DNA of 32,564 bases from Parcubacteria group bacterium M6-OD1-3 (lineage in GTDB: Bacteria > Patescibacteriota > Minisyncoccia > Moranbacterales > UBA9337): positions 1-32,564 of the forward strand of contig LSNR01000016.1 of assembly GCA_003056165.1 (NCBI GenBank). The letters are read 5' to 3'. Below the pieces are notes generated by a model. It was not told where the DNA came from, did not search any database, and worked only from the letters and a program-made list of their open reading frames with translations. The translations under genes and the position numbers were made by a program. Shown here piece after piece: positions 9,863-29,332 of this stretch. The stretch's first letter is position 1; each line of letters begins with the position of its first letter.

Positions 9863-9960
9863 GTATATTTTTAAGTTTGTCTTTGTGCCCGGGGCGGGAC
9901 TTCTCCTTACTCCGATGCGGAGCCTGGGCATTCGCGCCTGCTCATGCCCTTCAAGTCCCG
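9863..9960 (-). pseudogene. tRNA-Leu 3' fragment with 66-bp structured insertion
   Basis: The 40 bases at 9863-9902 repeat the 41 bases at 10003-10043, which are the 3' flank and last part of the intact tRNA-Leu, with one base length difference. In this copy the tRNA sequence stops after 16 bases. It is replaced by a unit whose ends form the inverted repeat CGGGACTT (9895-9902) and AAGTCCCG (9953-9960). Inside are two hairpins, CTCCG/CGGAG (9910-9922) and GGGCAT/ATGCCC (9926-9949). The right arm overlaps tRNA T-arm sequence. The GC content is far above the surroundings. From memory this unit looks like a dispersed Parcubacteria repeat; I cannot confirm it here. Confidence 0.7.
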
Positions 9961-10027
9961 TTACAATAACTTGAAGTTTTCTTTTTTTATTAAAATATTA
10001 ATGTATATTTTTTAAGTTTGTCTTTGT

Positions 10028-10110
10028 GCCCGGGGCGGGACTTGAACCCGCACGAATTTAACTTCACAGGATTTTAAGTCCTGCGTGTCTACCAATTCCA
10101 CCACCCGGGC
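10028..10110 (-). tRNA. tRNA-Leu (anticodon UAA)
   Basis: This is a complete 83-nt cloverleaf with acceptor stem GCCCGGG/CCCGGGC, a D-arm with TTGGTAG, anticodon stem CAGGA/TCCTG around CTTAAAA, and a long class II variable arm. The T-arm is GCGGG-TTCAAGT-CCCGC. Discriminator A is followed by CAA, so the CCA end is not encoded. It is flanked on both sides by damaged tRNA-Leu pieces. Confidence 0.95.
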
Positions 10111-10161
10111 AATCTATATAATATTGTAGGTACTTTATATGCTCAAGTGATAATTATGGTA

Positions 10162-10225
10162 CGCAGGACTTAAATCCTGGAACAAAGCTTAATCGCTTCA
10201 TTCCTACCAATTTCACCACCCGGGC
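10162..10225 (-). pseudogene. tRNA-Leu 5' fragment with hairpin and inverted anticodon arm
   Basis: On the minus strand the first 22 bases match tRNA-Leu up to the end of the D-loop, with one G to A change. Next comes a 24-base hairpin (GAATGAAGC/GCTTTGTTC, two G-T pairs, loop GATTAA), then CAGGATTTAAGTCCTGCG. That last piece is the reverse complement of the anticodon arm, with one T missing. The variable arm, T-arm and 3' acceptor are absent. It cannot be a working tRNA but would fold as a string of stems. Confidence 0.7.
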
Positions 10226-10250
10226 ATATGTATATTTTAATGTACTTTGA

Positions 10251-10320
10251 GGTCGCGCCCAGAATTGAACCGGGGTACACGGTTTTGCAGACCGTTGCGT
10301 AACCACTCCGCCACGCGACC
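10251..10320 (-). tRNA. tRNA-Cys (anticodon GCA)
   Basis: This is a complete 70-nt cloverleaf with acceptor GGTCGCG/CGCGACC, D-stem GCG/CGC, anticodon stem ACGGT/ACCGT around CTGCAAA, and T-arm CCCGG-TTCAATT-CTGGG. Discriminator T is as expected for cysteine tRNAs. No CCA is encoded. It is the only intact Cys tRNA in the window, and a disrupted 5' copy lies 30 bases upstream. Confidence 0.95.
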
Positions 10321-10349
10321 AAATAAACTAACTAAATTTTCAATAAGTT

Positions 10350-10419
10350 GGTTTTGCCTCCCTGCGGGAGATCACCCGAAGGGTGACAGACCTCTGCCTA
10401 ACCGCTCGGCCACGCGACC
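10350..10419 (-). pseudogene. tRNA-Cys 5' half with double-hairpin insertion in the anticodon loop
   Basis: The minus strand reads as a tRNA-Cys up to GGTCTG. A 29-base insertion follows (10386-10358) made of two hairpins, TCACCC/GGGTGA and CTCCC/GGGAG, and then the tRNA resumes with GCAAAACC before diverging. The T-arm and 3' acceptor are missing. The insertion falls in the anticodon loop between U33 and C35. The D-stem differs from the intact gene by a paired change (GCG/CGC to GCC/GGC), so this copy comes from a separate functional Cys tRNA and not from a recent local duplication. Confidence 0.75.
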
Positions 10420-10541
10420 ATTATTTTATTTGCATTCCAATAAAATAATACTATCAAAACAAACTGCAAAATGCAAATCATAAATCGTCACCTTTCCTTA
10501 TTATGACAAAATTATATATAGACACCCCCTATTTCAAAAAC

Positions 10542-10709
10542 TTATTTCTTTCGCCAATCTTTAATTAAAATACCTCCTCGCACTCTCTCTATACTAAGTT
10601 TTTGATGTTCACGCCAACCCAAATCATCAAGAAACTCTTTAGGTAAAATTATATACCTACTTCCCCGACCAGTCTTAGTCAATTTTCTTATTTCTTTTTC
10701 GTTTTTCAT
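10542..10709 (-). CDS. SpoVT/AbrB-type DNA-binding protein, 55 aa
   Basis: The product reads KLTKTGRGSRYIILPKEFL, then DLGWREHQKLSIER and GGILIKDW. This is the looped-hinge strand-turn layout of AbrB/MazE domains with the conserved GW-x4-QKL step, which is common in small CPR regulators. The length is that of one domain and nothing else. There is no Shine-Dalgarno. The gene starts 25 bases after a 22-bp palindrome that overlaps the predicted transcription start, so autorepression is a reasonable inference. No toxin partner gene is adjacent. A second, broken copy with nearly the same first ten residues lies at 14501-14557 beside another copy of the palindrome. Confidence 0.8.
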   Translation of the reverse strand: MKNEKEIRKLTKTGRGSRYIILPKEFLDDLGWREHQKLSIERVRGGILIKDWRKK

Positions 10710-10724
10710 ATTTTTCTAATTTTT

Positions 10725-27530: not shown

Positions 27531-27601
27531 AAAAATCCCTTCCTTTAGACTCATTCTTTTTTACCCTTTTACTTTTCGGCGGACAGGCTATTCTATAAAT
27601 T

Positions 27602-28777
27602 TTATTTAATGTCCTTGGCTACTTCTACATCTCGTATTTTATACAACTTTCTCATTGCAATTGTGTTCATAATTTTATTTGCAGAATAACCTATTAAAGC
27701 AAGTACGACAAAATATCCAACTCCAAAAAGAGTAAACTGCGGTATTTTTTTAGAAAATAGACCAATTAAGGTCGCACCAACACCCATGGATGTGATAATA
27801 GTAAGGTTCTTAACTGATGAATTGGTACTTTTTGCTTGAATTGACGAGAATAAATTTAGTGCGGAGTCAACATAATTCTTTGTCATTTTCCAAATATCTT
27901 TAACATAAGATAATGTATCCGACAAAGTCTCATGCTTAAACTGAAGTACGTCCAGAAATTTTTCCATAGCAGGAGCCTTTTTTAAAACAGATTCCCTTGT
28001 AGAAATATATGCTCCCATTTGATTCATACGCGCTTCAATCAAATTTATGGTTTTTGCATAACTTTCAATTTTTGCATTAAGTGCACCAACCTCACTTCCT
28101 TTTATTTCTCCCCTTTCCTTAACCTCTGCTATCCTTTCCCATATAATTCGATGCAGGTTTAGATAGCGATGAAGCTGACCCTTAAATTCTCTCATGAATA
28201 TCTGCTCTTGAATGAACTTTTCAATATCGATGATTTGTTCAGAAATATTATTTATGATGTATAACTTATCTCCTCGATATATCTCGAAAGTTTCCTCTTT
28301 TATCTCAAAATGTTTTTCTTGTTGAAACTCATCAAGCAATTTTTGTATGTTATCTTCTTGAGAATTTTTCAGTACGAGAAAATATGGGTAAATAGTTTTT
28401 ATATTAGCAAGCTCTTTTGGAATTGGTGCGCCAAGCGAGAAAATATAACTAATAGCAGGTGATAGTTTTTTCTCATAATAATGAGTCAGTGCCTCTATGT
28501 CTTTTTTGATTTCTTTTTCATTTCCTTTACTCAATAGGATAAGCCCGTCTTCAAATATTTTTACTTCTATATTCGTTGAGCTTGTGATTTTAACATATTC
28601 TAAATCGCCGACATTAAATTCAACTTCATTTATCAACAAATTGTCATGCAGTGCAACTAACTTTTTCTTTTTCAAAGCTAAGGGAGAATCAGCTTCCTTT
28701 AAAAAATCATATATTTCTGACAAATGCAGAGTTGTTCTTTGAAACCAACCCCCTACGAATATTTTTTCTATTTGCAT
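27602..28777 (-). CDS. membrane protein with two C-terminal helices, 391 aa
   Basis: A mixed alpha/beta region of about 190 residues (VEFNVGDLEYVKITS, LYIINNISEQIIDIEKFIQ) is followed by a long helical part with coiled-coil character (200-315). Two membrane helices sit near the C-terminus (about 327-345 and 350-368). The architecture is like RMD1/YagE or CorA-type proteins, but I see no diagnostic motif. It starts 13 bases after a broken XRE-type regulator with which it was probably co-transcribed. Confidence 0.6.
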   Translation of the reverse strand: MQIEKIFVGGWFQRTTLHLSEIYDFLKEADSPLALKKKKLVALHDNLLINEVEFNVGDLEYVKITSSTNIEVKIFEDGLILLSKGNEKEIKKDIEALTHYYEKKLSPAISYIFSLGAPIPKELANIKTIYPYFLVLKNSQEDNIQKLLDEFQQEKHFEIKEETFEIYRGDKLYIINNISEQIIDIEKFIQEQIFMREFKGQLHRYLNLHRIIWERIAEVKERGEIKGSEVGALNAKIESYAKTINLIEARMNQMGAYISTRESVLKKAPAMEKFLDVLQFKHETLSDTLSYVKDIWKMTKNYVDSALNLFSSIQAKSTNSSVKNLTIITSMGVGATLIGLFSKKIPQFTLFGVGYFVVLALIGYSANKIMNTIAMRKLYKIRDVEVAKDIK

Positions 28778-28790
28778 ATTTATTATTGTT

Positions 28791-28950
28791 TCAACTTATT
28801 AAATTATCAACGGAAACATCCAACGCTTTGGCAATTTTTCGTAAAGTTTCAAGTGTAGACTTTTGTCTTCCTGATTCTAAATTACTGATATAGACTCACT
28901 TATTAAATATCCTCTTACGACATTTTCTTCGCTTTGCGAATCTTTTTCAT
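28791..28950 (-). pseudogene. broken XRE-family (Cro/C1) helix-turn-helix regulator
   Basis: A strong ribosome site AAGGAGAG lies ten bases before an ATG that encodes MKKIRKAKKMS, followed by TAA where Gln is expected, then more stops. After a frameshift near residue 18 the second half reads YISNLESGRQKSTLETLRKI and AKALDVSVDNLIS, the canonical recognition helix and C-terminal part of an XRE domain. Both halves are fairly intact, so the damage is recent or the gene was lost under weak selection. The gene at 27602 is directly downstream. Confidence 0.8.
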
Positions 28951-29003
28951 ATTTTTATTTCTCTCCTTATTTATAATAGCAAGAAATTGTTTTATCGTAA
29001 ATA

Positions 29004-29035
29004 AAAAAACTACAGAGATAACTCTGTAGTTTTTT
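29004..29035 (-). terminator. terminator of tRNA-Ser
   Basis: AAAAACTACAGAG/CTCTGTAGTTTTT with loop ATAA makes a 13-bp stem flanked by T-runs on both strands, immediately downstream of tRNA-Ser. Confidence 0.88.
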
Positions 29036-29038
29036 GTT

Positions 29039-29128
29039 TGGCGGAGAGGGAGGGATTCGAACCCTCGGTACTCGTAAAAGTACAACACCTTAGCAGGGTG
29101 CCCCTTTCAACCACTCAGGCACCTCTCC
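29039..29128 (-). tRNA. tRNA-Ser (anticodon GCU)
   Basis: This is a complete class II cloverleaf. The acceptor is GGAGAGG/CCTCTCC, the D-arm contains GGTTGAAA, the anticodon loop CTGCTAA is on a CACC/GGTG stem, and a long variable arm follows (TTGTACTTTTACGAGTAC). The T-arm is GAGGG-TTCGAAT-CCCTC. Discriminator G is followed by an encoded CCA (29041-29039), unlike the other tRNAs here. Confidence 0.95.
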
Positions 29129-29151
29129 ATTTATTATATTTTAAACCCATT

Positions 29152-29235
29152 AACACCTTAGCAGTGTTGATTGAGAGTTGGCGAGCAATCTATTTCAACC
29201 ACTCCTCACTTGCTCATTCGCAAGCAAGCATCTCC
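29152..29235 (-). pseudogene. tRNA-Ser 5' half with two hairpin insertions
   Basis: On the minus strand GGAGA (acceptor) is followed by a hairpin CTTGCT/AGCAAG, then GGAGTGGTTGAAA (D-arm). Then comes a second hairpin GATTG/CAATC, and then TGCTAAGGTGTT from the anticodon arm, where AACAC/GTGTT can pair around the GCT anticodon. The variable arm, T-arm and 3' acceptor are missing. The insertions fall before and after the D-arm. It lies 23 bases upstream of the intact tRNA-Ser. Confidence 0.75.
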
Positions 29236-29279
29236 ATATTAATTATATTGTAAAATTCTCTATAAGTTTAACTTATATC

Positions 29280-29332
29280 CTGCTAAGGTTTACTTAGCAG
29301 TGTTGATTGAGAGTTGGCGAGCAATCTATTTC
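29280..29332 (-). repeat. second copy of the tRNA-Ser-derived hairpin unit with inverted anticodon arm
   Basis: The 39 bases at 29294-29332 are identical to 29158-29196. Next to them the anticodon arm piece CTGCTAAG (29300-29293) is followed after five bases by its reverse complement CTTAGCAG (29287-29280), so an 8-bp hairpin forms. No acceptor sequence is attached. This is an independent duplication of the same rearranged unit. Confidence 0.7.

Follow-up and report, generated by a model that had tools for sequence, protein, structure and literature searches.

The stretch analysed here, hereafter the window, is a contig (C21) of 32,564 bp from the genome of Parcubacteria group bacterium M6-OD1-3, an assembly of 817,765 bp in 26 contigs. 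Several of its tRNA genes lie next to partial or altered copies of themselves that carry GC-rich hairpins, and one tRNA-Asn gene also adjoins a free-standing gene for a GIY-YIG endonuclease; we describe these copies, the hairpins and the nuclease gene, and argue that they probably belong to one family of minimal mobile elements. ARAGORN and Rfam confirmed the intact tRNAs for Leu(UAA), Cys, Asn and Ser(GCU), together with two full-length, palindrome-bearing copies of tRNA-Asn. An initial annotation of this DNA, made from the sequence alone, had described an intact gene and an altered, hairpin-bearing copy for each of four tRNA families (Leu, Cys, Asn and Ser), and all four are as it described them, Ser being the weakest case in that its copies in the window are real but degenerate. 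The features are listed in order of position.

9868-9902, minus strand: duplicate of the tRNA-Leu 3' end (18 nt, 9885-9902) with 17 nt of downstream flank, found by repeat search
9903-9949, minus strand: T-loop hairpin cassette beside the tRNA-Leu 3' copy, of a cassette family that also adjoins tRNA-Ala and tRNA-Pro
9950-9960, minus strand: inverted T-arm copy directly after the Leu hairpin cassette
10026-10110, minus strand: intact tRNA-Leu(UAA) (ARAGORN; Rfam RF00005, 62.8 bits)
10159-10179, plus strand: inverted copy of the tRNA-Leu anticodon arm (flank score 14)
10189-10226, minus strand: broken tRNA-Leu 5' copy, upstream of the intact gene (repeat family and flank scoring)
10249-10320, minus strand: intact tRNA-Cys(GCA) (ARAGORN, Rfam)
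10358-10386, minus strand: double hairpin TCACCCTTCGGGTGA-TCTCCCGCAGGGAG in the Cys copy, located precisely within its anticodon loop
10387-10420, minus strand: tRNA-Cys 5' copy reaching the anticodon loop (repeat family)
11527-11615, minus strand: altered full-length tRNA-Asn with D-loop palindrome CTCCGCCAGCTGGCGGAG at 11583-11600 (ARAGORN)
14679-14774, minus strand: altered full-length tRNA-Asn with D-loop palindrome CCTGCCTGCCGGCAGGCAGG at 14735-14754 (ARAGORN, Rfam)
16360-16432, minus strand: intact tRNA-Asn(GUU) (ARAGORN, Rfam)
16438-16683, minus strand: free-standing GIY-YIG endonuclease reading frame of 81 aa, with the intact tRNA-Asn on one side and the tRNA-Asn fragment on the other (Pfam PF01541, E 1.5e-15)
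16695-16743, minus strand: tRNA-Asn 5' fragment behind the GIY-YIG frame, with a D-loop palindrome at 16704-16723
29039-29128, minus strand: intact tRNA-Ser(GCU) (ARAGORN, Rfam)
about 29152-29235, minus strand: degenerate tRNA-Ser 5' copy with two hairpin inserts (partly judged by eye)
29276-29340, minus strand: second degenerate Ser fragment, with the GATTGCTCGCCAACTCTCAATC hairpin in common with the first (judged by eye)

At the tRNA-Leu locus a perfect direct repeat of 35 bp (9868-9902 and 10009-10043) has the 3' end of the tRNA as its inner 18 nt, and the hairpin cassette is positioned exactly at the T-loop, ahead of the duplicated 3' end. This downstream copy is absent from the initial annotation, which had stressed broken 5' copies lying upstream of the intact genes; such copies are indeed present, but 3' copies cut in the T-loop are equally common. 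The D-loop palindrome of the Asn fragment behind the GIY-YIG gene is identical to that of the Asn copy at 14679-14774, and a palindrome near-identical to CTCCGCCAGCTGGCGGAG occupies the same D-loop site in the tRNA-Asn of G038, one of two genomes of a single genus (G038 and G039) compared below. Between the tRNAs there are also three copies of an 86-bp unit that carries a perfect palindrome, GTAACGTACCATGGTACGTTAC, and a terminator-like hairpin (10733-10818, 13202-13287 and 14593-14678).

Partial tRNA copies and their hairpins

The occurrence of partial copies was measured in stretches around 136 tRNAs (272 flanks) from the home genome and its relatives G001, G002, G003 and G005, each tRNA being scored against its own 600-bp flanks, with other tRNAs masked, and against the flanks of other isotypes as a mismatched control. 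Same-strand partial copies scoring at least 16 were found in 27 of the 272 own flanks (12 upstream and 15 downstream), as against 0.3% of the mismatched flanks. This enrichment (binomial P about 5e-32) excludes chance as the source of the copies. The annotation had left as a check whether other tRNAs of the genome have partial copies; about 12 of the 34 intact tRNAs in the home genome do within 600 bp, and they include Leu, Cys, Asn, Ser, Gln, Val, Lys, Tyr, Ala, Pro and Glu, with Thr added by reading. At a looser threshold the proportions are 10 of 33 tRNAs in G038 and 12 of 37 in G039, and in a thin phylum-wide sample the rate is lower, yet above zero. Assembly chimeras were rejected as an explanation because the identical layout, with open GIY-YIG frames, is found in dozens of independent assemblies.

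The copies end at particular places. With T-loop breakpoints placed by stem pairing, the break falls within a loop (D, anticodon or T) in 48 of the 52 copies anchored at a tRNA end, where 33% would be expected (P 6e-19, a value resting on short, related sequences in which some events are kin by descent), and 18 nt remain after most T-loop breaks. On the insert side of the break, the adjoining 40 nt have a mean folding energy of -14.0 kcal/mol; 40-mers drawn at random from these flanks average -4.8, and the sequences' own shuffles -9.0. Within 250 bp of tRNAs the density of GC-rich hairpins is 0.62 per kb, 4.7 times the 0.13 per kb of other regions, which answers the concern that the palindromes might be equally dense at unrelated positions. 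The hairpins at the breaks usually come in pairs, forming a double hairpin. When eight pairs of 6-3-6 hairpins from different tRNAs and lineages were aligned, 99% of the cells were paired, 7 of the 12 base pairs had changed on both sides, and the covariation score was matched by none of 500 shuffles.

The palindromes had been thought to differ from one tRNA to the next, a view that we do not share, as they form families common to several tRNAs and genomes. One cassette is common to Leu, Ala and Pro; Lys and Gln carry one hairpin family in opposite orientation; Val and Lys have a D-loop hairpin family in common; and the CCTGCCTGCCGGCAGGCAGG palindrome is found at both Asn and Thr. Three of the four genomic sites of CCTGCCTGCCGGCAGGCAGG lie within tRNA copies, and the fourth (C5:26996; L034 1280-1560) is in a structured-looking region. 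Neither that copy nor the GIY-YIG loci away from tRNAs matched a known RNA family in Rfam. Tandem arrays follow tRNA-Lys, each unit consisting of a hairpin and 18-19 nt of the tRNA 3' end: four 95-bp units in the home genome (L046, C19:128040-128430) and units of about 57 bp in G003 (L096).

The GIY-YIG gene, its target sites and its distribution

The GIY-YIG frame of the window encodes a stand-alone GIY-YIG catalytic domain, and the family alignment (A1) has conserved columns Y, Y, G, R, H, E and K. In profile comparison these proteins match structures of UPF0213 and, less strongly, the structure-specific nuclease SLX1. In 12 genomes searched with Pfam, 20 of the 50 non-UvrC GIY-YIG loci examined lie within 100 bp of a tRNA, where 1.2 would be expected. 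The usual order is a tRNA 5' piece reaching to a loop, a double hairpin, the GIY-YIG gene and the intact tRNA, as at the Asn locus of the window; the mirror order, seen for example at Ile and Pro, is intact tRNA, GIY-YIG gene, hairpin and 3' piece. The tRNA-Glu of G003 has one 32-nt double hairpin on both of its sides, with a GIY-YIG gene on one and without it on the other, and since the identical hairpin pair occurs both ways, the hairpin-only loci are linked to those that carry the gene.

Comparison of G038 and G039 gave an occupied and an empty site for the tRNA-Ser(CGA) gene, which is plain in G039 and holds a GIY-YIG element in its D-loop in G038. The occupied locus reads flank, CGGAGAGATGCTAGAGTGGTT, an insert of about 330 bp with the double hairpin and the GIY-YIG gene, CGGAGAGATGCTAGAGTGGTT again, and the remaining tRNA. 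The duplication of 21-22 bp begins one or two bases ahead of the gene and restores the tRNA-Ser. Such presence and absence at the target in close relatives is a mark of homing elements. A second difference of this kind concerns tRNA-Ala, next to which G039, but not G038, has the T-loop cassette and its 3' copy. At the tRNA-Thr(CGU) locus of G039 (L349 650-1010) a complete but different tRNA-Thr lies between the two halves of an old tRNA (GCCGAGA..., ...TCTCGGC), both of which have a hairpin. This arrangement suggests that an entire tRNA sometimes arrives with the insertion and takes the place of the resident gene. An apparent replacement of this type, old tRNA-Thr(CGU) halves around a different complete tRNA-Thr, is also seen at L331 640-1300.

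A scan of 84,980 GTDB species genomes with a three-sequence GIY-YIG alignment found the layout in many lineages of Patescibacteria and in Planctomycetota, Lentisphaerota, Ignavibacteriota, Bacteroidota and WWE3. Relatives of the gene lay within 200 bp of a tRNA in 44 of 79 cases, a proportion biased towards tRNA-adjacent members because the query was built from such members, a bias of which the Pfam-based 20 of 50 is free; in 43 of the 44 the gene and the tRNA run in the same direction. Beyond the GIY-YIG gene, on the side away from the tRNA, a copy of that tRNA was present in 19 of 52 pairs and in 5 of 260 controls. In a tree built from short, related sequences the GIY-YIG genes cluster by target tRNA (27 changes against a shuffled mean of 34.4, with 0 of 300 shuffles as low), as expected of a target-specific enzyme moving between hosts. 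Trp elements from Moran-, Magasanik- and Giovannonibacteria fall side by side in this tree, for example, and a clade with 99% support contains the Ser(CGA) elements of Planctomycetota and Lentisphaerota. The gene thus adjoins a fixed target site common to distant hosts, as a homing endonuclease element does. A viral collection contained one weak GIY-YIG relative, with no tRNA found at its locus, and so does not point to phages as the main carriers.

Family members away from tRNAs have terminal inverted repeats in 12 of 13 and in 17 of 36 cases, against 2% of control pairs. Joined together, these repeats would make a palindrome, a lead that fits an enzyme attracted to palindromes. One recurrent repeat, ACCCCCACACCA, is common to non-tRNA GIY-YIG genes in several lineages (L131, L137, L185, L195, L208, L222, L227, L242 and others), and the genes at L131 and L137, inspected by eye, seem to be placed immediately ahead of the start codon of a neighbouring gene. 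At L126, L136, L146 and L125 the GIY-YIG genes are flanked by inverted TGTCATCCTGAACTTG..GGATCC or TGTCATTCCCGC..GGGAATCCAG repeats, which resemble the dispersed repeats of other bacteria.

Interpretation and alternatives

We consider it probable that these loci were formed by a single family of minimal mobile elements, comprising homing-like GIY-YIG elements and hairpin-only derivatives, that inserts into tRNA genes. The case for it lies in the anatomy of the loci, the loop specificity of the breaks, the covariation of the hairpins, the association with GIY-YIG genes, the conservation of targets across phyla and the occupied and empty sites; the proposal in the initial annotation of a mobile element family that enters tRNA genes and regenerates them is supported by the loop-specific breaks, the occupied and empty pair with its restoring duplication, the recurrent GIY-YIG gene and the recurrence of target sites in many phyla. 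A complete element would consist of a single short GIY-YIG gene, of about 80-95 codons, and of a GC-rich hairpin or a pair of them at the end that lies in the tRNA. The endonuclease is predicted to cut the tRNA gene within one of its hairpin loops (D, anticodon or T), close to the loop's centre, and the element would be copied in during repair, the stretch from the cut loop to just beyond one tRNA end being either duplicated or supplied by the element. The outcome would be one complete tRNA and a truncated copy capped by hairpins, a complete gene being kept beside each truncated copy because of selection for an intact tRNA. Hairpin-only loci may be elements that lack the GIY-YIG gene, either as non-autonomous derivatives or as remnants. 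From the sequences we infer DNA cleavage by the GIY-YIG protein, the route of repair and the dependence of hairpin-only elements on that protein.

Several points weigh against this interpretation. Many hairpin-only loci have no GIY-YIG gene nearby, and the ordinary terminal inverted repeats of the non-tRNA members mean that the end structure of the family varies. A clean empty site for a GIY-YIG element was obtained in one case only. The different tRNA between the halves of tRNA-Thr(CGU) fits donor DNA with a tRNA of its own better than a simple duplication. Cleavage and mobility, finally, are themselves deduced from the arrangement of the loci.

A bolder version of the mechanism, which we put forward tentatively and would not favour on present evidence, is that a stand-alone GIY-YIG domain, related by profile to SLX1, recognises hairpins extruded from DNA, whether tRNA arms or other palindromes, cuts them at the centre of the loop and drives a transposon-like insertion with a long target duplication.

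Among the alternatives to a mobile element family is a general mutational process, in which tRNA genes are partly duplicated, and palindromes built, through errors of replication or template switching, and the GIY-YIG genes are later passengers. The inverted tRNA pieces held by some copies, such as the Leu anticodon arm at 10159-10179 and the T-arm pieces adjoining Leu, Ala, Pro and Lys, speak for it. Identical hairpin sequences, however, recur at different tRNAs and in different genera, the hairpins covary, and in distant phyla they occupy one and the same site of a given tRNA, accompanied by related GIY-YIG genes; errors would not produce this. The shared hairpin families and the same-site insertions argue strongly against this process as the main cause, and we regard it as unlikely.

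REP/RAYT systems and the Rickettsia palindromic elements are short palindromic mobile elements, and a single-strand transposase of the Y1/RAYT type could in principle have moved the hairpins as REP-like elements, the more so as the genome has three Y1 transposase genes and the double hairpins resemble REP pairs. The hairpins of those systems are nevertheless of other kinds, and the Y1 loci here are flanked by palindromes different from those in tRNA loops: at L354 there are five copies of TCTAGGACCGTCCTAGA, the same palindrome as the TAGGACGGTCCTA found elsewhere in the window outside tRNA copies. The tRNA-loop hairpin motifs tested are all absent from the Y1 loci, and no Y1 gene lies inside, or is flanked by, a tRNA-loop hairpin family. 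We therefore rejected a RAYT/REP element as the source and think this explanation very unlikely. The window's palindrome CTAGGACGGTCCTAG (positions 11635, 16268 and 16300), of a family separate from the tRNA-loop hairpins, probably represents the REP elements of the Y1 transposase of contig C5, since five copies of it flank that RAYT-like gene (L354 1154-2035).

Tyrosine-recombinase islands target the 3' end of tRNAs and restore the tRNA, with 18 nt a typical length for the attachment site, and many of the copies are exactly the 18-nt tRNA 3' end, as scars of such islands would be. It is highly improbable that they are scars, as islands are kilobase-sized and carry integrases, whereas the inserts here are about 57-400 bp with no integrase at the loci, and copies derive also from the 5' side and the anticodon loop; the only integrase in the genome is one broken fragment on another contig. 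A group I intron was also discarded, there being no intron family among the Rfam matches of the window and the intact tRNA being contiguous beside the insert.

We give hardly any credence to the idea that the altered copies are functional RNAs (tRNA decoys or nuclease-protected tRNAs) spread by selection on the RNA, for although the cloverleaf is complete in two Asn copies despite their D-loop hairpin, and an insertion in the anticodon loop might block anticodon nucleases, most copies are fragments unable to fold as a tRNA, and what recurs beside them is a family of DNA endonucleases with UPF0213 and SLX1 as relatives; the decoy-generating process once suggested for this DNA finds no support here.

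A nuclease element that restores the gene it enters is known in the Allomyces atp6 endonuclease element. Among free-standing enzymes the closest likeness to the proposed family is T4 SegB, a GIY-YIG homing endonuclease encoded in a phage tRNA cluster (Brok-Volchanskaya 2008, cited in PMC2988022; PMC13096335): it too is an intronless GIY-YIG gene adjoining tRNAs, and is thought to cut tRNA-containing DNA and so spread itself and its region. SegB differs in lying between tRNAs in a phage, and the available text of these accounts describes for it neither double hairpins in tRNA loops, nor a truncated target copy with a regenerated gene, nor hairpin-only relatives. By analogy, the elements may work as such a free-standing GIY-YIG homing element does, spreading by DNA cutting and repair.

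The hairpins recall the double-hairpin elements of Allomyces mitochondria, which are short, GC-rich and apparently mobile (Paquin, Laforest and Lang 2000, cited in PMC2800124), and the GC palindromes that flank mitochondrial tRNA genes in Neurospora (Yin 1981, cited in PMC2800124). Two adjacent GC-rich hairpins are likewise repeated at many sites here. However, the fungal elements are reported to have no target duplications (PMC2800124), unlike the 21-22 bp at the tRNA-Ser of G038 and the 35-bp repeat at tRNA-Leu; they are mitochondrial, and no link to a GIY-YIG gene or to tRNA loops is described in that text. The likeness is an analogy only. Duplications with truncated extra copies of atp6 and atp9 in Sclerotinia borealis mitochondria (PMC4162613) also place a complete gene beside a truncated one in a genome rich in GIY-YIG genes, but they involve protein genes in mitochondria and break without hairpins. 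A published description of the combination of hairpin, GIY-YIG gene and tRNA loop was not found in the open-licence literature; this is weak evidence of absence.

The proposed family would give a concrete role to the tiny GIY-YIG genes that are numerous in Patescibacteria and other uncultivated bacteria, and would explain the partial tRNA genes and odd palindromes in such genomes. It would mean that a selfish element can inhabit essential, single-copy tRNA genes without killing the cell. The prediction concerns a protein of roughly 10 kDa and a tRNA gene, and is directly testable. Should the nuclease read folded DNA, this would be a new mode of target choice; if the bolder mechanism is true, a single gene would suffice for structure-guided transposition that tolerates essential targets because the duplication restores them, hairpin-only satellites would spread as well, and tRNA genes could be swapped between species. 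Because the targets are short, universal and conserved, these elements may offer a route for the replacement of tRNA genes between distant bacteria.

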